Shown: piece by piece, positions 1-10,680 of the stretch
Numbering within the stretch: position 1 is the stretch's first letter
Layout: each line of letters begins with the position of its first letter
Origin: Microcaldota archaeon
GTDB lineage: Archaea; Micrarchaeota; Micrarchaeia; Anstonellales; J096
DNA: 10,680 nt
Assembly (NCBI GenBank): GCA_015520875.1
Contig: WAPD01000007.1
Span: forward strand, 1-10,680
Direction: 5' to 3'
Notes under the pieces: model-generated
The model's database searches: none
Told to the model about the DNA's origin: nothing
What the model saw: only the letters and a program-made list of their open reading frames with translations
Position numbers and translations under genes: made by a program

Positions 1-3000
1 ATTATTCTTAAACCACCGCCAGAAACTCTATTAGGCAATGTTTGATTGTAATTATAAGTAAAAGCAACACAATTATTTATATTGTAGTATAACAAATTCC
101 CGGTAAAGTTCTCTGTTGACCCATTTATATAAAGAAAACCGTAGCTGAAAAACTTAGGGTAGCTGTTTGTTTCATTAGCACATAGTTGGTTTTCATTTAT
201 TGAAATGTTTCCAGCCCCCAGCAATTGAGATACAGTTAAAAATATGGAACCAGCTTGCCCATTAGTTGGGGTAAAGTCATAAGGTGTTGCTCCAGGACCA
301 GTGGGTGCAACCGCTAACAACTCTCCATCCACAATTAAGTTAGTTCCATTTAAAATGATTAAACCGCTATAAGGCATTACTACATTTCCACCATTTTTCC
401 AAATAGTTATCAATGAATGTGGGAATACTGGTTTTGTTTCAACTTCCAAGGTTAATGGCCATGCTGGTGGGTAAATACCTTTGAACATCACATCAACCTT
501 GGATGTTCCATCTATTGTGAAATTACCAAATGACATATTAACAGCATAAAAATAAGGATACCTTGGATGGCTTAGGTAAGATCCATTGATTAAATAAATA
601 TAATCAGCTGAAACATGAGGTACAAATTGTTCCACATAAGCTCCATTAGTTATCCAAATCTCATCATATTGAGTTCCGTCTATAAATGCTTGGTTTGGTG
701 TTGGTTTATGGGCATTATCAAACATTAAAATAAGTGAAGTGCTATTGTTAATTAATAATGTTCCCGAAGAACCTGTTGAATAGTTAAAGATACCCGTGTT
801 GTTTCCCAACCCTCCGCTTACGTCTATATTTGATAACTCTGTTGTAGAACCTTCCAAATAAATCCTACCACCAGAACCTCCGCCAGCACCTAATGAAGAA
901 CCTCCAGAAACGTTTATATTATTCACATAAATAGAATTTCCTTTCGCTAAAAAACCACCACCAGAACCTGCACTTCCTAAACCAGAGATTCCAGAAAGGT
1001 CAACATTTTCAGCAACAATGTTTGTTCCATATAATTCTACTAAAGCACCTCCAGGTGTTCCCCAAACATAGCTATCATTTCCACCACCAGAACCTATAGA
1101 AGGTTCCCAGGAGTAACCCACAGGTCCAGAAGCCATGCTAAATCTATCTGAACCTCTACCACCAAAACCACCATGGCTACCTCCAGCCCTTTCTTTATTA
1201 GTTCCAGGGCCCATAGAACCCATTTCACCAATTCCTTTAGTGTTATTTAGAACAATTGAACTTGCATTTACTTTAAACATTCCAAGAATTGTTATGTTGT
1301 TTAAATCAACATTGGAACCATTAACATAAGCATTCACATAAATGGAATCATTTTTTATGGAATCATGGAAATAAGCATAATTAATAAATGTAGCTCCATC
1401 GTAAGTAATTAAAGTGCCGTTAGTTGAAACATTGCAAGGTTCCCAGTTAGGGCCACATAATCCTTCATATGGAGAATTATAAAAGTGCAATTGTTGTTCT
1501 GTTACCGTTAATGTTGGAACAAATGAGTTTACAGTAGTGTTTAAAGCTATGTAATCGGAGAAATAGCTACCGCTGCTTGTTAAAGATATTTTAGCATCTG
1601 GATGGGTATAATAAATAATAGGTTTGTTGTTGGCTTTATACAATAGAGATGTTAGATTCCTTTGAAACACAAAGATAGAAGGCTGTTCCGCCCACCAATT
1701 AAGCACAGATGGGGCTTTCCAATGCCTGTAGGTTTCTGGATAGTAAACATATGTATAAGTATCCCAACTATATGAAGGCTCTACATATGAATCTCGTGGA
1801 TCATATCCTATGTAATAATAACGACTTAATCCAGATTTATTAATTAATCCTCTGGCAGTAAATGGCCACAGAGATAAAACAGTTGTAGCATTATCCACTG
1901 AACTTAACACAAAATTATTTGGAGGTAATGAAGGGGTATATGTTAGGTAAAATGTTTGTTGTCCCGCAGAGAAATTTCCTTCAAAGTAAACTAAACATTT
2001 TCTAATTGAAAGATAATCTAATTCATCACAAACAACTTTTGTTGGGAAAACAGTTGTTCCATTAGAAACAGCGTATTCCAAAGAAGGTCCCACGCTAAGG
2101 CCCATAAAGCGTAAATCCCTAAATGGAACTAAAAATGCCAATCCTTGTAGCCCATCTCGTGGAACATCGATCGTAACAGGTAATCTTAAATCGTTGTATA
2201 GGATAACTGGGAACCCTCCATAAGGTTGGGTAAAATCATAAATCAAGTAATTATGTTTAATCCAAAGTGTTCCTTTTCCTTCAACACTAAAGGAAGGCGC
2301 CCCAACAGGTAGAGGAGAGGATGTATACAAGTAATCTTTAGAAGAAACCCTAAAGTAAAGATGAGGAGTTCCATAGGAGATATTATCTAAAATTATGGAA
2401 ATAGGTTTTGTAGGATTGTATAAAAACGAATTCCAGCCGCTTGTTCCATTATAAGAGATATTCCAAAGCCCGTTTTCCAGTAAAGTGGCTTTTACCATAG
2501 GAACTGTTCCAACATAAAGGGTAAAGTTGGAACCGGCCTCCGTCATATTCACAAACAACAGAGAGATTTCATAATAATATTTACCTTCCAACGTTCCATT
2601 AACTTCTAGAGAGTAATTTCCATCTAAAACAATCCACTTTCCTTGTTTATAATCAATAGAACTAGTTGAGCCTCCGGCTGTTTCAGTATATGCATTTATG
2701 GTTGAATTAGATGTATTTCCATAGTAAATCCTAAATATGTTTGTTCCTGGTGTTAGATTGGCTTTAAACGCGATTACACTTGGTCCAGTACAACCAAATG
2801 TTTGAGATGGCAATTGTGTTCCATCTTGGTAAACGGCGATACCATTACAAGTATCTTTTCCCAAAAATTCAGGCACATATCTTAAAAGGATCGTTTTATT
2901 CTGCAAATCACCGCTAGAATAAACTTTTGCAATAAAATATCCTTGATAATTTGATAGAGGATTACATTGCAAATCACAACCAATACCTGATGAAACATCA

Positions 3001-4364
3001 CATGTTAAATTTGTCTTAGACGCTATTGTGGGATTATATGCTTTTATATCAGTAGCATAATTACAAAAGGCCACATTTTCCAAGTTTAATGTATCGTTAA
3101 CTGTAAAGAAACCAACGCTGCTGCCTGTTCCATTACCGCTTACATTAGTTAAATTCAAACTTGAGCCAACCGAGTACAATTTATACAATGAAACATTTTC
3201 CAGTGTTGCATTAGTTTCTTTCAATGCTAAGCTATAATTGGATAAATTTTTATTAAACAGCTTAAGGGAGCCTCTATAAACATAACCATTACTCGAGAGG
3301 TTCCAAGTTAGATTATAAGGGTATAACACCATGGGCACATTTATTTCCACATAAGGCCTGTAAGTCATGTTTTTATTATAGGAAACAAGCAACACATTAG
3401 GTTCAATTTCAGCGTTCCATAAGATTACATCTAATGCAGGTCCACTATATAACAATGTCCCAGAACCTTTTGCATTTCTCAAAACAAAGTGATTATCAAC
3501 AAAAACCGTTCCGTTGTTCAATGTTAAATTAATGCTATCAAAACCACCAATTCCAAAAATGAACAAAGTTGCGTTCTCTACATAGAAATTATGGGAGTTA
3601 TTGGAAGTATTTATTATAAATACAACGTTTTTAGAGTTTTTTACTTCGTAAAATCCTTCATATATGGAACTATTTTCCTGGTAAACTAAAACACTAGAAG
3701 CATTATAAAAAGAAATGTTTGGTGTTCTGATGAAAAAGATATCGTTTTCATATCTCAAAGTGATGTTTTCTAAATTCTTTCCTGTTAAATCACCTATAAC
3801 ATAACAACTAACACCACAAAACATGACTATTTCAACATCTTTATTGGTTTCATTCTCCAGTGTTCCATTAAAAGTCATTGTATTATATCCAGTTGTTGGA
3901 ACAATAAAAAGCTCCTTCGTTCCATTAATTGTTCCCACAGAATCCCAACAATTGTAGGTAATATTTTGCTCCGAGCTTAGGAACAAATGAAACCCTTGAA
4001 AGGTTGTTCCATTTACTTCACAGGTTGTTTCGGGTGCTCCAACCACAGGATAAAAATATGGAGACACTCCTTGAGGTACCAGCGGAACCCATACAGGACT
4101 ATTCACAATTAAATCTAAATTATCTGTTCCATCTGCACATTCTAACGTTAAATTATAAATCCCTCTCATAAACCAGAGATTTAGCGTCCCATTTTCCATT
4201 GAAAACCAGTGTGTTCCATTGTGTAAAATACAGTCATAACCAGAAACATTTAATTGAACATTATTAGAAGAAGTTGTGAAAAAGCCCGAAGGCTGGATAG
4301 AGGCAGCAGCCACCAGCCCAACAAAAAGCAGCCAAAACATCATTATTAAATGAAATTTACCCAT
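1..4364 (-). CDS. Giant exported beta-helix/DUF2341-like surface protein, 3' end beyond the left edge
   Basis: Checked codon by codon, this frame is open from the start near 4364 to the left edge: 1454 residues with no stop. Residues 1-21 form a signal peptide (MGK, then a hydrophobic run ending in VAAA-S). About 30-330 hold beta-rich and beta-helix-like stretches; 472-550 resemble a DUF2341 module ending in RIYYGN; about 690-811 form another beta-sandwich ending in TFYLTYTP; 849-891 are rich in Tyr and Trp; 1044-1201 are Gly-rich solenoid. I count close to 70 N-x-S/T sequons, as expected for an archaeal extracellular glycoprotein. Start choice: ATG at 4364 has AAAGGA 11 bases upstream and lies one base after the previous stop; an in-frame ATG at 4373 would overlap that gene and sit only two bases from the AAAGGA. 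The C-terminal anchor, if any, lies outside the window. No catalytic residues were recognised; a structural or adhesive surface role is inferred. Confidence 0.95.
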   Translation of the reverse strand, partial: MGKFHLIMMFWLLFVGLVAAASIQPSGFFTTSSNNVQLNVSGYDCILHNGTHWFSMENGTLNLWFMRGIYNLTLECADGTDNLDLIVNSPVWVPLVPQGVSPYFYPVVGAPETTCEVNGTTFQGFHLFLSSEQNITYNCWDSVGTINGTKELFIVPTTGYNTMTFNGTLENETNKDVEIVMFCGVSCYVIGDLTGKNLENITLRYENDIFFIRTPNISFYNASSVLVYQENSSIYEGFYEVKNSKNVVFIINTSNNSHNFYVENATLFIFGIGGFDSINLTLNNGTVFVDNHFVLRNAKGSGTLLYSGPALDVILWNAEIEPNVLLVSYNKNMTYRPYVEINVPMVLYPYNLTWNLSSNGYVYRGSLKLFNKNLSNYSLALKETNATLENVSLYKLYSVGSSLNLTNVSGNGTGSSVGFFTVNDTLNLENVAFCNYATDIKAYNPTIASKTNLTCDVSSGIGCDLQCNPLSNYQGYFIAKVYSSGDLQNKTILLRYVPEFLGKDTCNGIAVYQDGTQLPSQTFGCTGPSVIAFKANLTPGTNIFRIYYGNTSNSTINAYTETAGGSTSSIDYKQGKWIVLDGNYSLEVNGTLEGKYYYEISLLFVNMTEAGSNFTLYVGTVPMVKATLLENGLWNISYNGTSGWNSFLYNPTKPISIILDNISYGTPHLYFRVSSKDYLYTSSPLPVGAPSFSVEGKGTLWIKHNYLIYDFTQPYGGFPVILYNDLRLPVTIDVPRDGLQGLAFLVPFRDLRFMGLSVGPSLEYAVSNGTTVFPTKVVCDELDYLSIRKCLVYFEGNFSAGQQTFYLTYTPSLPPNNFVLSSVDNATTVLSLWPFTARGLINKSGLSRYYYIGYDPRDSYVEPSYSWDTYTYVYYPETYRHWKAPSVLNWWAEQPSIFVFQRNLTSLLYKANNKPIIYYTHPDAKISLTSSGSYFSDYIALNTTVNSFVPTLTVTEQQLHFYNSPYEGLCGPNWEPCNVSTNGTLITYDGATFINYAYFHDSIKNDSIYVNAYVNGSNVDLNNITILGMFKVNASSIVLNNTKGIGEMGSMGPGTNKERAGGSHGGFGGRGSDRFSMASGPVGYSWEPSIGSGGGNDSYVWGTPGGALVELYGTNIVAENVDLSGISGLGSAGSGGGFLAKGNSIYVNNINVSGGSSLGAGGGSGGRIYLEGSTTELSNIDVSGGLGNNTGIFNYSTGSSGTLLINNSTSLILMFDNAHKPTPNQAFIDGTQYDEIWITNGAYVEQFVPHVSADYIYLINGSYLSHPRYPYFYAVNMSFGNFTIDGTSKVDVMFKGIYPPAWPLTLEVETKPVFPHSLITIWKNGGNVVMPYSGLIILNGTNLIVDGELLAVAPTGPGATPYDFTPTNGQAGSIFLTVSQLLGAGNISINENQLCANETNSYPKFFSYGFLYINGSTENFTGNLLYYNINNCVAFTYNYNQTLPNRVSGGGLRI
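762..1235 (-). repeat. Gly-rich beta-solenoid region of the left protein
   Basis: Residues about 1044-1201. Gly-rich turns (GGSHGGFGG at 1061-1069, a GSGGG pair, GAGGGSGGRI at 1159-1168) alternate with short strands that repeat a theme of V-x-x-x-N-x-x-V/I-x-G/S, for example VENVDLSG-like, INVSGG and IDVSGG steps. The GGS.GG.GG...GSGGG...GGG.GGRI layout occurs in many large secreted beta-helix proteins of bacteria and archaea, where it forms Gly-rich edges of a solenoid. The reverse strand appears Pro-rich only because it is antisense to this part. Confidence 0.7.
1692..1820 (-). other. Tyr/Trp-rich segment in the left protein
   Basis: Residues 849-891 contain 11 tyrosines and 4 tryptophans in 43 positions, including YYY, a TYTYVYY run and a WW pair. 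No known family was recognised. Dense exposed aromatic residues are typical of carbohydrate-contact or protein-contact surfaces, but that is inference here. The segment lies between the beta-sandwich region and the later beta-helix and Gly-rich part. Confidence 0.7.
2715..2951 (-). other. DUF2341-like beta-sandwich module in the left protein
   Basis: Residues 472-550, from NYQGYF to IFRIYYGN. The order of elements fits DUF2341: an NYQ opening, a strand with a D..gI.V.qDGt.LP pattern, a PG turn and a closing hydrophobic strand ending in YYGN, the hallmark of that family. DUF2341 modules are common in secreted multidomain proteins, next to concanavalin-like or beta-helix domains; their role is unknown. 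The call rests on pattern memory, not on a profile search. A later region, about 690-811, ends in the similar TFYLTYTP and may be a diverged second copy. Confidence 0.6.
4302..4364 (-). other. Signal peptide of the left giant protein
   Basis: Residues 1-21: a short N-region with one lysine (MGKFH), a hydrophobic core (LIMMFWLLFVGLV) and a small-residue cleavage region (AAA before S22). This is a normal Sec-type layout. There is no lipobox cysteine. Several internal Met codons (residues 8 and 9) could serve as starts but would remove the positive charge. Confidence 0.85.
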
Positions 4365-4365
4365 T

Positions 4366-4629
4366 TTAAACATTTTCCTTTACCATAAAGCTTGATAACG
4401 AGTTAGGTGCCAATTTGTGTTTGATTGGTTTTAATGAGTAAGTTCCTGATTTCTCTGGGATGAACGAGGCAATTCCTGCATTATCGGTAGACACAGTATA
4501 CTCTCTTCCCTCAGGTCCCAAAATCAATAACATTACATTTGGAACAGGTTTTCCATTTTTATCTCTAACTCTAAACTCAACCCTGGTATTTACATAAGGT
4601 TCATTCAATAATTCAACAATAGCTATAGG
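4366..4629 (-). other. Transthyretin/carboxypeptidase-regulatory-like tail domain
   Basis: Residues 1861-1947. The pattern V.D.NGKPVPNV...ILGPEGREYTVSTDNAGIASF followed by GTYSLKP matches the carboxypeptidase-regulatory-like or Big_1-type beta-sandwich: a V-x-D-x-x-G-x-P-V-x-x-V strand, a T-D-x-x-G-x-A-x-F strand and a G-T-Y strand. Domains of this kind are usually extracellular. Here the domain follows the membrane helix, and has no sequon and no cysteine, so it is predicted to be cytoplasmic. Confidence 0.7.
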
Positions 4630-7600
4630 TTTTCTCCATAGGAAGAACCAAATTAAAGCACCCCCAACCACTAAAGCAATTATAAATGCTGGGAAGCCCC
4701 ATCCTGTGGATAATGTTAAAGGTTGCGTTGTTGCTACTGAAGTAGGGAACAGTTTTGGTAACACTTCTTTAACATCCTTCTCCTCATCTTCTTTTTCTGT
4801 ATGGATCTGAATTACTTTAAAGGTATCTTGACTTAAAACCCTATAACCATTGTTATCAGTTGAAACCAATGTAATTACATAATCTCCAGGGTTCAATTCT
4901 AGAGTTTGATTGTAAACATAATCAACAACTAGTGTCCCATTTAAGATAACAGTATTATTCAAGTACAACACTGAAGAAACAGCAGATTGGTTGGAATGAT
5001 GTACAAGATAGTTAATAGGCACATTAGAGGTATTATTTGTGTAATATTTATCAGAACTTGCATTTACGCGATTATAGAAAACAAATGTTTCATTTGTTGT
5101 TTCATTTGAGATAACAGTAATCTCAACACTGGAGACTCTTGTGTTATTAAAGTCATCTTTGGATATTAATGTAATATTATAACGGCCTTGGGAAAGCCCC
5201 ACAACCTGAGAATATGTTGTATTAACAGATAAGCTTCCATTTAATATCAATGTATCGTTAATGTAAATTAAAGACGGTACATTGGATTGTAGATTATGAG
5301 AAACATTGTAGAATATTTGAACTGGTGCTATGTTTTCTGTATAGTAAATGGTTTTATCTGTGGTTAGATTGTTGTAAAATATTATCTCTTTAGTTAGTTC
5401 AACAACGTGGAAAGAGCTTCCATTTGTGATAAATGTTCCATTATACTCGGAAACAATTGTTAGATTATATTCACCGGGAGGTAATTCTAAATAAGAAGCA
5501 TACAATACATTTGATGAAAGATTTTCCCAGAGAATCATAGGTACATCATTTATGTAAACGCTTGTATTTACATAGGATAAATTAGAATGCACTCCATAAT
5601 AGATCTTAACGGTGCTATTGTTGTAAGTGTAATATATGGATTGATTAGAATAAACAAAATTCCATACTTCTTCAGAGTAATCTGTACCTAAGAATTTCCA
5701 AGTGTCGGAATAACCAACAGGATCTCCATTATCGACACAGGTTACATTCCAATAATAGATATCATCCTTAAACAAAGTATGGGAGCGCTGGGAATAAACA
5801 GGTTTTTGTCTTCCATTTGGAGCAACAGTGGATATAGAAAGAATATTTTCTCCATATTTGTCATAAACGTTTAACCTACAATCTAGCATAGGATCCAAAT
5901 CATCAAATGCTAGGAAGAAAAATATAGGTGGGAACTTCATCAACCTAACATTATCTGGAGGTGCAATTAAGTGGATCGTTGGAGCTGTTGTATCGTTCAT
6001 AGTTACATAATAAATCAGTATGTGTTTTCTGGTTCCGGCTGTTGTTCCGTTTAACTCACACCTTATACCTACATCATATATTCCAGGCCTATCAAAAGAA
6101 ACTTCTTTATTGTGAATTCCAGGAAGCACTGTTTCTGTTCCCAATAATATTCCATCTAAATAAATGGAACATGTGATATTTTCGTTTACACTAGAGATTA
6201 CCTTATATGTAATGTTTGTTGCATTATTATCAGGGGTTAGCTTCAACCCACTTTCGTTAGTTAGTATAGAAACATCCAAAGTTACTGTTGGAGTTGTTAA
6301 GCTAGAAACAACAGGACAATAAACCTCATCATAACATACCAATGAAACGTCTCCTTCGGCTCCCGAGATAGTCCCCTCCACTGTTCCATTATAGTTGAAA
6401 TTAGCATATGAAACATCGTCCACAATAATAGAACAAGTTCCCCTGGAACCCTCCACCTTATAATAAGTACCATTAAATGTTAAATTCAATCCATCTAAAC
6501 AGCTTTCATTCTTTACCACAAAACAGCCTGTTGTTTGATAAAAACATAAGTCATTTGTTGCATTAAGTTTCAATGTATAGATACCAGGGCTAAAGTTCAT
6601 CACAAATGAGTCTTGGAAATAATTGCTAAAGTTTCCATCTCTTAACAGAGAGTTATCCAAGTACAGTGAATAATAGGAAGGTAAATTAGCATAAAGTTGA
6701 TATGAAATATTGATAGGAGTTTCCTCAATAGAACAACCAGAAGGAATTAACGTTCCAGTAATAGTACATGCCGGAACAATGCTTAGATTAATTTTTGAGG
6801 TATTGCTACAATAACTTTCCACACAAGTAATTTCTAAAGTGTGGTTTCCAGCACTTAAATTAAATCCATAATTTTTAATGAATGAACCAACAACCGTAAA
6901 TGAATCAACCACTGTTCCGTCCAATAACACTCTACATGAAGAGTTTCCATCCACAATTACCCTATAATTTACTTCGTTGCCTGTTAATGTAGCACTGGAT
7001 GAAACCCCTATATCACAAGTATAATTCTCTGGAGTTTGGTTTCTAACATAGATACAAGCACTATCGCTAGCACCACAATAGCCAGCATCAACTCTAACCA
7101 AAAATACATTTGTGCCATTTACTAATTCTACAAGCATGTTTCTAGAGAAACCACCCGCGCTTACCCTTTTAGAACTAATTAAATCATCATTATGATAAAA
7201 TGAAACAGTGGCATTCCTAGACACATATCCGCTATAACTTACTATGTATTCACCGCCACTCTCAACAATTTTACAATAGCTCTGTGGTAAATCCCTAAAT
7301 GATACATCAGCACTACATGAAACATTCCTTGGGATAGAGGTATTTGCAATGTTAACATGTAAAGAAGAAAACGCACTATCCACACATCCTGAGTTTGCTA
7401 AATCAACACATACTATGCTAAATAAGTAATCTCCAACCCCAAATGAGAAACTTTGGTTATAACTAGAATTAAACGTTCCTATTAAAGTTCCATTTAGTGA
7501 AACATTACAACTATAGCTGCTATCTCCAATTACAGATGCATACAAACTTCCGTTCCAAGAATTGTTATAAGTACCTGATGGTAAAGATGCATTCAATGTT

Positions 7601-10209
7601 ATATTACAAAGCCTTGGAGTTAGTGTTTCATTTATTACAAATAAAGATGAAACGCGGGACTCCTTACAATCTGGAAATACATTGGATTCACATATTAAAT
7701 TAAACAAATAACTGCCAATCCCAAAGGTCCATGAATTGTTATACTGGGAACTTAATCCCGTTTCATTATATAATAGAGAACTATTCAAAGAAAGGCTACA
7801 ATTCATAGGATAATTTGATATAGCATAGTACCATAAAGATGTATTTGTTTCATTTATATATGTTCCATATGGCAAATTAGCGTCCATATAGATATAACAA
7901 AGTTCTGGTGGTGGGCTTGTTCTAGAAACATTTAACCTTCCTTCCAAACGTGCATTACAAGAAACATTTGTTAATTGATAACAGTAAACTTGAGATAAAT
8001 AAGTACCATCGCTTAGATTTAACAAAGTAGAGTAGTTCACATTTGTTCCTGTTCCTTGATACAAAACAGTGCTATTCAACCAAGCCCTACATTCAATTGT
8101 TTCAGAAGATGTAGCATTAAAACTATAATTAAACAAACTTTCATTGGTATATCCTGAAGGCAACATTCCCATTAATTCAAGGTCACAAGTTGTTCCATTA
8201 CCTCCAGTTAAGGAATAATTCGAAACAACTAAATGTCCAGAAAGTTGCTTACTACATGATGGTTTGCTAGGTGCATAACAATTCACATAGCTATCGTAAA
8301 CACCAGGACCTAATATATAACTTTGGTCATAGGAAACAGTTGTTCCGGAACCTGTATAAATCAACGTTCCATTGACAGTAAATTCACATTGTAAATTATA
8401 ATTGGATGCGGCATCAAACTTAAACTTCTCTAAAGTAGATGAATTAGCATAAGTTCTTCCAGATGGTAAATATCCAGATAGTGAAATATAACATTCTTCT
8501 TCTGGGGGCTCCACAATAATACAACCAACATCGGAATCAAAACATTGATTATCTTCTGAAACAACTTCTGCGTAATAGGTATAGGTTTGATAAGTGGTTG
8601 TTGAAGTAAGGAATGATAAAGAAGTGCTTCCCAGCAAACTTCCACTATAAATCTGATCTCCGTTTAAGTAGACATTTAACGTAGATGTTTTATTTACGGA
8701 ATATGCGGATACTAAAGCAGTAAATGATGTAATATTTCTAACAACCATACAAGCTCCATTTGGCAAATTGGTTATATCAACTCCATTATCACATGTTTTA
8801 TTCCCTCTTTTTACATATAGAGTTAAAGATTTCTCGTTACAAGGTTTATCTTGACAACTTAATGATAATGTGTGGGTTCCTTCTTCCAAAAATACTAATG
8901 TTTCATTAAGAGTATTTTGAGAAGAATTAATAGTTGAGACAGGTTCTCCATCTAGATACAAGGAACAACTGGTATAGTTCCCAGAGAATTGTGCGCTTAC
9001 ATTTAAATAAGCGGGGCTATGCATATAGACAGTAAATTCAGATAACCCCATTGCAGCAACTCCGTTCAAATATAGATCGTCAACATAGGCAGTACAATTG
9101 CTTGGAAGATAAATCACACACGCATAATCGATGTCAGATGTAGTTCTTGTTCCACATTCATTGGATGCTGAGGCTGTTGTAAGCAATATGAAATCGTTTC
9201 TACCTTCGCCCAACAGAACTTCAGTAGATTTCTCAGCATATCCTGAGAGATAAGAGGAGTCCAATACTTCATCGATACCGTTACCTATTTGTCTTAATAC
9301 ATAGGAACCTTCTTCATAAGCATAAGAATTGTAATCTAAATTTAGCAAAGGATCAGAAACATTTACACAAGCTCCTTTAGGTAAATTAGAAATCGATGAC
9401 CTGGCAACAGGTGTTGGCAAATCAGGACAACTTGTTTCATTATCGTCTCCTCCAGTAGGTGGAGAAAAACCAGCACAACTTTCAAATAAGGAACTATAAT
9501 CTGGATTGATGTGAGGGACAACGAAATCTGCCTTAAAGCTCTTTGCAACCAAATCTAATGGGCTTCCCATATCCACATCCACAACATTGTTACAAATCCA
9601 TGTTGTATATGATCCAGTTCCTCCAAAGTAATCATCCACAAATAATCCAATACCATTGCCCCATACCCAAGTGTTCTCCCCCACCCAATAGAGGTCTCCA
9701 GAAGCGGCAATTCCAATACCACTATCATAGATGTGAACATTTCTGGTGTACAAATTATGAGATCCAACCAAAGATAATGCATGACCTCCTGTAAAACTTC
9801 TAAAGCCTGCAATTGTAATATCCTCTAATCTAACGTTTTTAACACCCTCAGTGACAAAAATACCATAATAGCCAGAAATACCTAATGGAACAATAGTACC
9901 TCTTTTTAGAGAAATGGTGGCATCAGGTCCACCAGTTATATGAAAAACCTTAACATTACTCTGATAGATGCCATTTCCCAGATCAATCTCACAAACCTCA
10001 CCAGGTTCCAAATCTATCCAAAAATCATACAACAGATTGACAATAAAACCAGGACCACTTCCATAATATATTTCATTTTCCATACAGTCCAATACAGCTT
10101 TAGCACCTTCACAACTTACCACAGGAGGTCTAAAACACCTAGGTTCATCCGAGAATATCAATGGAACAATAAGCAACAAAACCAACAATATTAATAAAAT
10201 TTTCTTCAT
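4366..10209 (-). CDS. Giant multidomain surface glycoprotein with one C-terminal membrane anchor
   Basis: Complete 1947-residue frame. In order: signal peptide (1-20, MKK then a Leu/Ile core, cleavage after IFS); beta-helix-like head (about 30-245); Ig-like modules B1 (275-369), D1 (371-473), B2 (481-568), A1-A4 (573-955), B3 (972-1056), D2 (1062-1148), B4 (1155-1233), D3 (about 1237-1310) and D4 (about 1312-1402); an FN3/Ig-like linker opening with DTTAPTIHL (about 1406-1508); repeats C1-C3 (1514-1801); a charged spacer (1804-1820); a membrane helix (about 1838-1858) followed by WRKP; and a transthyretin-like tail (1861-1947). About 88 sequons lie within 257-1767 only, and residues 1492-1947 lack cysteine. 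The ATG at 10209 overlaps the upstream TGA, giving an obvious coupled start. No enzyme motif was seen. Known families suggest an extracellular rod carrying a beta-helix tip; adhesion or cell-coat function is inferred, and no named family covers the whole protein. Confidence 0.98.
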   Translation of the reverse strand: MKKILLILLVLLLIVPLIFSDEPRCFRPPVVSCEGAKAVLDCMENEIYYGSGPGFIVNLLYDFWIDLEPGEVCEIDLGNGIYQSNVKVFHITGGPDATISLKRGTIVPLGISGYYGIFVTEGVKNVRLEDITIAGFRSFTGGHALSLVGSHNLYTRNVHIYDSGIGIAASGDLYWVGENTWVWGNGIGLFVDDYFGGTGSYTTWICNNVVDVDMGSPLDLVAKSFKADFVVPHINPDYSSLFESCAGFSPPTGGDDNETSCPDLPTPVARSSISNLPKGACVNVSDPLLNLDYNSYAYEEGSYVLRQIGNGIDEVLDSSYLSGYAEKSTEVLLGEGRNDFILLTTASASNECGTRTTSDIDYACVIYLPSNCTAYVDDLYLNGVAAMGLSEFTVYMHSPAYLNVSAQFSGNYTSCSLYLDGEPVSTINSSQNTLNETLVFLEEGTHTLSLSCQDKPCNEKSLTLYVKRGNKTCDNGVDITNLPNGACMVVRNITSFTALVSAYSVNKTSTLNVYLNGDQIYSGSLLGSTSLSFLTSTTTYQTYTYYAEVVSEDNQCFDSDVGCIIVEPPEEECYISLSGYLPSGRTYANSSTLEKFKFDAASNYNLQCEFTVNGTLIYTGSGTTVSYDQSYILGPGVYDSYVNCYAPSKPSCSKQLSGHLVVSNYSLTGGNGTTCDLELMGMLPSGYTNESLFNYSFNATSSETIECRAWLNSTVLYQGTGTNVNYSTLLNLSDGTYLSQVYCYQLTNVSCNARLEGRLNVSRTSPPPELCYIYMDANLPYGTYINETNTSLWYYAISNYPMNCSLSLNSSLLYNETGLSSQYNNSWTFGIGSYLFNLICESNVFPDCKESRVSSLFVINETLTPRLCNITLNASLPSGTYNNSWNGSLYASVIGDSSYSCNVSLNGTLIGTFNSSYNQSFSFGVGDYLFSIVCVDLANSGCVDSAFSSLHVNIANTSIPRNVSCSADVSFRDLPQSYCKIVESGGEYIVSYSGYVSRNATVSFYHNDDLISSKRVSAGGFSRNMLVELVNGTNVFLVRVDAGYCGASDSACIYVRNQTPENYTCDIGVSSSATLTGNEVNYRVIVDGNSSCRVLLDGTVVDSFTVVGSFIKNYGFNLSAGNHTLEITCVESYCSNTSKINLSIVPACTITGTLIPSGCSIEETPINISYQLYANLPSYYSLYLDNSLLRDGNFSNYFQDSFVMNFSPGIYTLKLNATNDLCFYQTTGCFVVKNESCLDGLNLTFNGTYYKVEGSRGTCSIIVDDVSYANFNYNGTVEGTISGAEGDVSLVCYDEVYCPVVSSLTTPTVTLDVSILTNESGLKLTPDNNATNITYKVISSVNENITCSIYLDGILLGTETVLPGIHNKEVSFDRPGIYDVGIRCELNGTTAGTRKHILIYYVTMNDTTAPTIHLIAPPDNVRLMKFPPIFFFLAFDDLDPMLDCRLNVYDKYGENILSISTVAPNGRQKPVYSQRSHTLFKDDIYYWNVTCVDNGDPVGYSDTWKFLGTDYSEEVWNFVYSNQSIYYTYNNSTVKIYYGVHSNLSYVNTSVYINDVPMILWENLSSNVLYASYLELPPGEYNLTIVSEYNGTFITNGSSFHVVELTKEIIFYNNLTTDKTIYYTENIAPVQIFYNVSHNLQSNVPSLIYINDTLILNGSLSVNTTYSQVVGLSQGRYNITLISKDDFNNTRVSSVEITVISNETTNETFVFYNRVNASSDKYYTNNTSNVPINYLVHHSNQSAVSSVLYLNNTVILNGTLVVDYVYNQTLELNPGDYVITLVSTDNNGYRVLSQDTFKVIQIHTEKEDEEKDVKEVLPKLFPTSVATTQPLTLSTGWGFPAFIIALVVGGALIWFFLWRKPIAIVELLNEPYVNTRVEFRVRDKNGKPVPNVMLLILGPEGREYTVSTDNAGIASFIPEKSGTYSLKPIKHKLAPNSLSSFMVKENV
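4376..4381 (-). promoter_or_regulatory. Shine-Dalgarno-like AAAGGA before the left gene
   Basis: AAAGGA on the minus strand lies inside the last codons of the 1947-residue gene. It is 11 bases from ATG at 4364 and only two from the alternative ATG at 4373, so it favours the 4364 start. The spacing is slightly long and the match is modest, so coupling to the upstream stop (TAA at 4366-4368, one base before the ATG) may matter as much. Confidence 0.45.
4636..4698 (-). other. C-terminal transmembrane helix
   Basis: Residues about 1838-1858 (GFPAFIIALVV...WFFLW) form the only long hydrophobic stretch besides the signal peptide. An acidic and basic spacer (TEKEDEEKDVKEV, 1804-1816) precedes it, and WRKP follows at once. 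By the positive-inside rule, the N-terminal bulk is outside and the tail inside. The end of the sequons at residue 1767 agrees. Confidence 0.9.
4807..5670 (-). repeat. Three tandem cysteine-free C repeats near the membrane
   Basis: Residues 1514-1604, 1607-1701 and 1707-1801. Each unit opens with an aromatic strand (NFVYSN, IIFYNN, FVFYNR), then a YYT..N.....V.I.Y.V.H.. segment, a Y-I/L-N-D/N strand (YINDV, YINDT, YLNNT), an ILNGSL or ILNGTL-like strand and a closing L.PG.Y.IT.VS strand. Period is about 95-100 residues. None has cysteine, unlike the A, B and D modules. Rich in sequons. They probably form the membrane-proximal stalk. Confidence 0.85.
6511..7296 (-). repeat. Second B-D-B module block (B3-D2-B4)
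   Basis: Residues 972-1233. B3 opens with DLPQSYC (973-979) and ends with cysteines 1045/1052. D2 has cysteines 1065, 1092, 1129 and 1134 around CRVLLDG and AGNHTLEITC strands. B4 opens with a LIPSGC variant (1154-1159) and ends with cysteines 1222/1229. The D1 and D2 core cysteines are the same distance apart (37 and then 5). The block repeats the order of residues 275-568 and supports an internal duplication flanking the A array. Confidence 0.7.
7345..8493 (-). repeat. Four tandem A repeats with conserved cysteine spacing
   Basis: Residues 573-955 hold four units that start at C573, C675, C771 and C868 (periods 102, 96 and 97). Each opens with C-x-I/L-x-L-x-x-x-LPxG, for example LPSGRTY, LPSGYTN, LPYGTYI and LPSGTYN. 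Each has four cysteines: 573/608/644/652, 675/707/743/751, 771/804/840/848 and 868/901/934/942. The last two are exactly eight apart in all four units. Two intramodule disulphides in an Ig-like sandwich are the likely meaning. Nucleotide identity between units is low by eye, so the duplications are old or diverging quickly. Confidence 0.85.
8506..9387 (-). repeat. First B-D-B module block (B1-D1-B2)
   Basis: Residues 275-568. B modules open with N/D-L-P-x-x-x-C (NLPKGAC at 275, NLPNGAC at 481) and end with a cysteine pair (352/364 and 556/563). The D module has cysteines at 372, 415, 452 and 457 around a CSLYLDG strand and an EGTHTLSLSC strand. The same order recurs after the A repeats, so this is one copy of a larger duplicated unit. 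Similarity is at protein level only. The modules look like diverged Ig-like beta-sandwiches. Confidence 0.7.
9475..9969 (-). other. N-terminal parallel beta-helix-like head
   Basis: Residues about 81-245 show successive short rungs typical of the pectate-lyase-like right-handed beta-helix: a T.sLkrGtiVPL rung, then GIFVTEGVKNVRLEDITIAGF, GHALSLVGSHNLYTRNVHIYDS and GIGIAASGDLYWVGENTWVWGN-type rungs of about 20-25 residues with Val/Ile/Leu inside and Asn/Gly at turns. Such folds usually bind or cleave polysaccharides, but no catalytic Asp/Arg set was recognised. The region contains no N-x-S/T sequon, unlike everything after it. Paired cysteines at 206 and 245 may fasten its end. Confidence 0.7.
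10150..10209 (-). other. Signal peptide of the 1947-residue protein
   Basis: Residues 1-20: MKK, then an uninterrupted Leu/Ile/Val core and a PLIFS cleavage region before DEPRC. This is a classical Sec signal. A cysteine follows at residue 25, but there is no lipobox pattern directly at the cleavage site. Confidence 0.9.
10206..10209 (-). promoter_or_regulatory. ATGA stop-start overlap coupling two genes
   Basis: On the minus strand the TGA of the upstream gene (10206-10208) shares two bases with the ATG of the 1947-residue gene (10207-10209). No strong ribosome-binding motif lies at usual distance (AGGA is about 13 bases away), so re-initiation after the upstream gene is the likely start mechanism. 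Confidence 0.85.
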
Positions 10210-10680
10210 TGTCCAATTGGGTTCCTAAGCAGCTCCAATGTATTCCTGATTAATGGATATGCTTCGTTTTTATCTAGAATTCCCCCACCCGACAACCATG
10301 GATCTAATCTATTTCCAAAATCCATGTATAGTGCCTCTTTAACTTCTGTTTTTAATGGAGTATAATCTGCGTTTCCCCGCTCTCTTATAAATGCCTCTAA
10401 AGATTCTCCCAAAGTTCTCTTTGTCGTATTATCTACACCACTATAATGAAACTCAATTACACCAGCGCTTGCATTATAAGTTGGCGGATTTGTACCATCT
10501 TTATATAACTCAATTCTACAAACATTATCAACAGAAAGATAATTTAGCACAGCACCCAAATTTGCCAATTGATAGAATTTTTCTTTAGCTTCAGGTGTAT
10601 TAACCTCAACTAAAATTAGGATAGCAAACTCACTATCGCTATAATTTTCTTTTGTTACCTTATCTTTAATGATCTCTGCA
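10206..10680 (-). CDS. C-terminal part of an unrecognised protein, 5' end beyond the right edge
   Basis: The frame is open from the right edge to TGA at 10206-10208: 157 residues visible with no Met start that looks real, so the gene begins outside. I do not recognise it. It starts with a helix/strand region (EIIKDKVTKEN, SEFAILILVEV), then NTPEAKEKFYQLANLGAVLNYLS, a segment with the sole cysteine (NVCRIELYKDG), a GVIEFHYSGVDNT strand and an amphipathic C-terminal half ending in LRNPIGQ. There is no membrane helix in the visible part. Its base use matches its neighbours. Its stop overlaps the start of the giant surface-protein gene, so it is co-transcribed and translationally coupled; it could serve that protein's assembly, but this is only a context guess. 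Confidence 0.9.
   Translation of the reverse strand, partial: AEIIKDKVTKENYSDSEFAILILVEVNTPEAKEKFYQLANLGAVLNYLSVDNVCRIELYKDGTNPPTYNASAGVIEFHYSGVDNTTKRTLGESLEAFIRERGNADYTPLKTEVKEALYMDFGNRLDPWLSGGGILDKNEAYPLIRNTLELLRNPIGQ

Follow-up and report, generated by a model that had tools for sequence, protein, structure and literature searches.

A predicted fibrillar adhesin-like surface protein of a Micrarchaeota archaeon with cysteine-patterned, Ig-like stalk modules in a fixed order

The window, by which we mean the whole stretch of DNA analysed (10,680 b), is the entire source contig, and it comes from a 639 kb genome in 122 contigs that is 77% complete. A single open frame on the minus strand encodes a protein of 1947 aa with 54 cysteines and 88 N-x-S/T sites. 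From the N-terminus the order of the modules is B1, D1, B2, A1 to A4, B3, D2, B4, D3, D4, E1 and F1 to F3, where the cysteine steps given below are the distances between successive cysteines of a module. The features are as follows.

4366-10209, minus strand: whole gene, a membrane-anchored surface protein of 1947 aa in a single open frame; 36% identity to a same-genus relative over residues 4-885
10150-10209, minus strand: putative signal peptide, residues 1-20; KK and then a hydrophobic stretch, 19-residue hydropathy up to 2.7
9445-10137, minus strand: head, residues 25-255, possibly a right-handed beta-helix; 44.6% identity to the relative, weak Pect-lyase_RHGA_epim match
9097-9429, minus strand: B1, residues 261-371; matches the B profile (which includes B1); steps 20/71/12
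8794-9096, minus strand: D1, residues 372-472, A/D framework; steps 43/37/5; aligns to A with four cysteines in register
8494-8793, minus strand: B2, residues 473-572; matches the B profile; steps 14/69/7
8188-8493, minus strand: A1, residues 573-674; matches the A profile (which includes A1); steps 35/36/8
7900-8187, minus strand: A2, residues 675-770; matches the A profile; steps 32/36/8
7609-7899, minus strand: A3, residues 771-867; matches the A profile; steps 33/36/8
7318-7608, minus strand: A4, residues 868-964; matches the A profile; steps 33/33/8
7018-7317, minus strand: B3, residues 965-1064; matches the B profile; steps 14/66/7
6769-7017, minus strand: D2, residues 1065-1147, A/D framework; steps 27/37/5; scores of 26.1 with D1 and 23.6 with A2 against shuffle means near 11
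6502-6768, minus strand: B4, residues 1148-1236; matches the B profile; steps 11/63/7; best partner F (29.3)
6277-6501, minus strand: D3, residues 1237-1311; steps 22/33/6; labelled from its cysteines only, with no profile signal to any module
5992-6276, minus strand: D4, residues 1312-1406; two cysteines only; A profile E 3e-4, D1-D4 score 31.3
5677-5991, minus strand: E1, residues 1407-1511; matched in other genomes of the order, for example G073 (40% over 1401-1522, E 1.5e-14)
4801-5676, minus strand: F1 to F3, residues 1512-1803, three cysteine-free repeats; identity to F1 40% for F2 and 38% for F3; B-F profile score 39.9
4636-4698, minus strand: putative transmembrane segment, residues 1838-1858; hydropathy up to 2.45, RK after the segment
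4369-4629, minus strand: inner tail, residues 1861-1947 (87 residues), CarboxypepD_reg-like; PF13620 E 1.2e-5, 26 bits, below the cut-off of 32.3

Two further open frames flank this gene. The frame at 3-4373 on the minus strand encodes a second large surface-type protein of at least 1457 aa and runs off the contig end. It overlaps the end of the 1947-aa gene by 8 bases, suggesting that the two are probably cotranscribed. Its product has no match in the nine other genomes of the family and no Pfam family at E 1. Upstream, a frame of 157 aa (10206-10679, minus strand) also runs off the contig end and has no match in those nine genomes either. The upstream neighbour of the relative's gene is different, presumably resembling an asparaginyl/aspartyl-tRNA synthetase, and gene order therefore differs between the window and the relative.

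The relative is the only long match among the 84 genomes of the order (own included), 20 of which have some match. It is encoded by an uncultured Candidatus Micrarchaeota archaeon of the same genus (contig CALKCX010000010.1, 1-4146, minus strand, locus L030), which was also the single locus found in a search of genome contigs. It is read over 1382 aa to the contig edge; the opposite end of that contig, checked for the missing C-terminus, holds a different protein. The relative has the order B-D-B, six A, B-D and the start of a further B. The last two cysteine steps are identical across the two species in B1 (71/12), B2 (69/7) and B3 (66/7), which indicates that the B modules correspond by position.

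On the 1947-aa protein every Pfam family stays below its cut-off, and no NCBIfam family matches at E 1. Protein database searches at E 0.001 with residues 255-1400, with an alignment of both relatives and with residues 25-480 returned no matches, the window protein itself also not being recovered; for the first two of these queries scoring was limited to the 7988 and 8000 candidates sharing most words. A search of solved structures with the whole protein gave weak matches (best E 0.74), which are not used as evidence. Among the matches listed from the open-access literature there was no paper on such a Micrarchaeota protein. The author of the original prediction did not know of a described family of this kind. 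The modules are indeed unnamed by Pfam and NCBIfam at these thresholds, but they belong to a broad known kind, as set out below.

The head is the best kept of the parts compared with the relative, with 44.6% identity against 35, 35, 33, 24 and 28% for B1, D1, B2, B3 and D2. Residues 24-260 match Pect-lyase_RHGA_epim (E 0.012, 15.9 bits, below the cut-off of 27) in one of the two rows, and from this one weak match the head is possibly a right-handed beta-helix. Against solved structures its best match was a phycocyanin at E 0.3, nothing convincing by sequence. At the other end of the protein a hydropathy peak at 1835-1860 marks a putative membrane-anchoring segment, a feature also of methanogen adhesin-like proteins, and the tail behind it matches CarboxypepD_reg-like families of Pfam exclusively. 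Matches to this tail (4369-4629, minus strand) lie at 19 places in 16 of the 84 genomes of the order, and on inspection by eye further surface proteins of this genome likewise end in a small tail that follows a hydrophobic segment. A possible conserved domain on the inner side of archaeal surface proteins may merit attention.

The main claim of the original prediction was that the order B-D-B flanks a tandem array of four A repeats between residue 275 (base 9387) and the end of residue 1233 (base 6511). This order is borne out, with the A repeats at 573-964. The equal spacing claimed for the D-module cysteines is also there, at 415/452/457 and 1092/1129/1134, with steps of 37 and 5 in both. 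The claim of matching LPxxxC openings holds for B1 (276-281), B2 (482-487) and B3 (974-979) but not for B4, which has LIPSGC (1154-1159), one residue shorter. Two more D-like units had been proposed, and the cysteines at 1259/1292/1298 (D3) and 1347/1384 (D4) are where they were placed; D3 gives no profile signal to any module.

In 2000 residue shuffles of 257-1310, LPxxxC (three seen in the window protein, 0.14 expected) and the exact 37/5 triplet (two seen, 0.07 expected) were never found as often, and C-x32..36-C-x4..10-C (seven seen, 2.0 expected) was found as often in seven. The 37/5 triplet is absent from the relative, where D1 and D2 have 37/11 and 35/8, and LPxxxC occurs there once only, a number reached in 302 of 2000 shuffles. 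A different pattern, C-x(5-9)-[LIM]P, is common to both proteins and opens the A and most of the B modules. The window protein has seven matches, at four A and three B modules, and the relative nine, at six A and two B modules with a further one at 481 outside any opening; none of 2000 shuffles had as many in either case. LPxxxC was accordingly dropped as a signature of B, as it occurs once in the relative and the shared pattern does not tell A openings from B openings; the 37/5 spacing was dropped as a sign of block copying, as it is absent from the relative.

The cysteine frameworks are 31-35/33-37/5-8 for A, 43/37/5 and 27/37/5 for D1 and D2, 11-14/63-69/7 for B2 to B4 and 20/71/12 for B1, and the steps in the relative are close to these. 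In the A-B profile alignment the fourth cysteine of A falls on the third of B and the LP openings coincide. From this alignment, B lacks the mid-domain cysteine pair of A; in its place there is a cysteine that follows the opening and another at the last strand. This suggests that A and B probably differ by an exchanged cysteine pair, that is, by one common and one exchanged disulfide, where both the pairing and the strand names are predicted. The exchanged bond would lie between two central strands in A and would join the opening segment to the last strand in B. A, D1 and D2 would then share one framework, while B would keep the first cysteine and the one after the second-last strand, the other pair being different. 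Thioredoxin_4, which we take to be of the DsbA kind, is encoded in all five genomes of the genus, which speaks for the overall reading given below, and VKOR in none of the five, which speaks against it.

Profiles of the module types were compared using hhalign. With full profiles the scores are 41.4 for A-D, 39.9 for B-F, 34.0 for A-B, 25.3 for B-D, 20.1 for D-F and 19.0 for A-F, and no shuffle reaches the score of its pair (97-100 column shuffles per pair, maxima 13.3 to 21.7; reversed profiles 8.9-14.1). A-F is the weakest of these links (19.0 against a best shuffle of 18.6). HHalign probabilities are 93 for A-D, 92.5 for B-F and 81 for A-B, and low for B-D (34.5), A-F (4.7) and D-F (4.4). 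The profiles thus appear to tie A, B, D and F together with unequal strength, A to F barely. An hhalign table of individual modules at unequal depth favoured the ten-row A profile and was replaced by one at near-equal depth, comprising 14 profiles and 91 pairs with 24 column shuffles each. Eleven of these profiles have two rows (the second row of B4 is incomplete, and in two A profiles the paired modules are of uncertain orthology) and D3, D4 and E1 have one. The pairs above all shuffles include strong A-A links and B1-B3, B2-B3, D1-D2, D1-D4, D2-A2, D4-A3 and B4-F. With profiles this shallow, many pairs of unlike type do not exceed their shuffles, and neither do those of D3 and E1, save two marginal pairs of E1 (with D1 and A1).

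The Ig-like identity of the modules was approached in the same manner. No Pfam Ig family is over its cut-off on the whole protein or on ten A and seven B modules taken alone, and PF16640, PF02369 and PF02368 are not found on the protein at E 1. Strong matches to the A and B profiles occur in two of the 84 genomes of the order. Beyond these two genomes, weak matches to the A profile lie at 17 places in 11 of the phylum's 301 genomes (13 when the two are counted). Four of the places are on Big_13, Big_7 or Big_9 domains over cut-off, two on such domains below cut-off and two in Big_13-matching proteins where overlap is partial or not shown; at the other nine, the best stretches listed include none from an Ig family that overlaps. 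The B profile has matches in seven of the 301 genomes, two of them strong, with six places outside the two proteins. One of them, L070, coincides with a Big_7 match that is below cut-off. Another, at 1501-1764 of L080 in a further genome of the phylum, is matched by both the A and B profiles and adjoins a Big_3_5 domain. We regarded the remaining four as chance matches: L081 resembles a beta-helix by eye, L082 is interrupted by a stop, L083 belongs to a protein matching Arylesterase and NHL, and L084 to one with CARDB just below cut-off. Searches of solved structures led from the A profile to antibody light chains (best E 0.014) and gave best E-values of 1.3 for B and 0.33 for D, all weak and not counted as evidence. 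In view of the tallies of outside matches the Ig-like reading is a profile inference, in which the modules would be variants of one Ig-like sandwich. Big_7, Big_13 and Big_9 are distant profile kin of A, and the modules of the window fall below the cut-offs of those families.

A further gene cassette is present in three genomes of the genus (L071, 2396-8693; L074, 2639-6503, first two genes only; L075, 2224-8618). The product of its first gene, of 884-955 aa, is a membrane protein whose outer domains are Ig-like, Big_13 being over cut-off in the two scanned whole. Of the second (334-345 aa) and third (about 880 aa) products one copy each was scanned: the second matches a type IV secretion pilin family weakly, under its cut-off, and the third matches no Pfam family. 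By eye the products are polytopic.

The original prediction read the modules as three diverged Ig-like types grown by block duplication. The data support a fixed order of diverged repeat modules whose profile links are Ig-like, but D as a third type is doubtful. The order can be written B-P-B-PPPP-B-P-B-P-P, where P is A or D, and under such an alternation of two classes, with one P position expanded in tandem, a block copy is unneeded. In agreement with this, the A profile scores 42.5 against a D1/D2 profile (shuffle maximum 16.9 in 97 of 100 shuffles), D1 of both species and D2 of the relative have their four cysteines in register with A, and A2 of the relative has a D-like 36/5 spacing. Nor does the AU test demand a clade of D1 and D2 (p 0.19 when they are held together). 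At equal depth, however, D1-D2 (26.1) is above the best single D-A pair, D2-A2 (23.6), and the seven remaining D1-A and D2-A pairs score 11.4-20.4. In a tree of the A and D modules D1, D2 and D3 also stand apart from A with support of 91/96, whereas D4 groups with A. D may therefore be an older, separate line, although the branches are long and this is unsure. We regard the alternation of two classes as tentative, with the balance somewhat against it.

The same scores bear on the history originally proposed, in which a whole ancestral B-D-B block was copied in one piece and the A array grew between the two copies. This predicts that B1-B3 and B2-B4 are best partners. B1-B3 (31.6) is far above B1-B2 (12.1), D1-D2 exceeds both its shuffle maximum (18.4) and any single pair of D1 or D2 with A, and in the unequal-depth table B2-B4 (19.9) was above B3-B4 (14.9). 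The strongest B pair, however, is B2-B3 (39.6; 37.9 in the unequal-depth table), B2-B4 (22.2) hardly differs from B3-B4 (22.0) and the best partner of B4 is F (29.3). B1-B2 and B1-B4 are not above shuffles at equal depth. The AU tests reject none of the three groupings of the B modules (p 0.25, 0.21 and 0.18), so that B1 with B3 is allowed (p 0.249) but not singled out, and the module trees are too shallow to date any duplication. The data thus do not bear out block duplication, and we consider it unlikely. Any copying of a B-D-B block must predate the split of the two species, because the first block and all or most of the second are present in each.

The number of A repeats differs between the two species, four in the window protein and six in the relative, the variation in repeat number looked for in fibrillar adhesins of the Periscope type. 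Within a protein the A repeats are 23-42% alike. Some neighbours reach 40-42% while the best pair across species is 36%, suggesting separate turnover of the array in each species. The tree leaves this unsettled, the AU test giving p 0.34 for the window's four A repeats as a clade and p 0.43 for the relative's six.

Taken together, a start that resembles a signal peptide, the fixed order of twelve modules with cysteine patterns, a single hydrophobic segment close to the C-terminus and a short tail suggest a fibrillar adhesin-like surface protein, with a head, an Ig-like stalk with an expandable A array, an anchor and a short inner tail. We favour this reading and think it reasonably likely, with room for doubt. 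The modules would form a stiff, extracellular stalk, braced by disulfides and glycosylated, in line with its 88 N-x-S/T sites, while the tail would end inside the cell. The stalk may hold the conserved N-terminal head off the membrane so that it could bind a partner cell or another surface. The B-D-B stretches would be constant parts, and gain and loss of A repeats would set the length of the stalk.

A long, cysteine- and sequon-rich protein with one hydrophobic segment near the C-terminus might also be an S-layer-like structural component of the envelope, its modules packed laterally on the cell surface, and no adhesin. Such a component would be expected in every member of the genus, but the three other genomes (83-88% complete) have no match to the whole protein or to the head, and the head is the part that has been kept best. 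The patchy occurrence of the protein (two of the five genomes of the genus, all incomplete) fits a fast-changing interaction protein better, and we consider the S-layer-like role quite improbable.

Returning to the adhesin-like reading, a more specific form of it is that one Ig-like fold is locked by alternative disulfides and that the position-fixed B-D-B cassettes bracket the A array as joints or caps, shielding head and anchor from changes in length. This is speculative and, in our view, unlikely. If the exchange of cysteine pairs between module types is an exchange of disulfides on one fold, it would be a clean natural case of a fold braced by alternative bonds. Little appears to be known about the attachment of Micrarchaeota to other cells, and a stalk of this sort, its frame fixed and its array of unequal length in sister species, would be a concrete candidate.

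Three known systems resemble the protein in part. The giant Ig-like proteins of nanohaloarchaea (SPEARE and its kin; PMC10266531) are of 8,880 and 9,409 aa with a VirB4/TraG-like ATPase at the end. Like them, the window protein is from a DPANN archaeon and has a predicted signal peptide, tandem Ig-like domains and then a membrane segment. Unlike them, it is of 1947 aa and ends in an 87-residue CarboxypepD_reg-like tail, with no VirB4/TraG-like ATPase match.

The adhesin-like proteins of gut methanogens combine a right-handed beta-helix, archaeal big domains and a membrane anchor, which is mostly N-terminal; their modules are assigned by Pfam to PF16640, PF02369 and PF02368, and four of them have a carboxypeptidase-regulatory-like domain (PMC11532034). 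The tandem Ig-like modules and the membrane anchor of the window protein are in keeping with this type, and so would be its possible beta-helix. In contrast with it, no Pfam family is over cut-off here, each A or B module has four conserved cysteines in one of two frameworks, and the anchor is C-terminal.

Finally, in Periscope proteins variation in gene length alters the projection of the binding domain (PMC8201768, PMC8286594). A stalk of repeated domains is common to these proteins, to bacterial fibrillar adhesins and to the window protein. The differences from the Periscope type described there are that the window protein is archaeal, that its A repeats are 23-42% alike and that the variation in length is between two species rather than within one.
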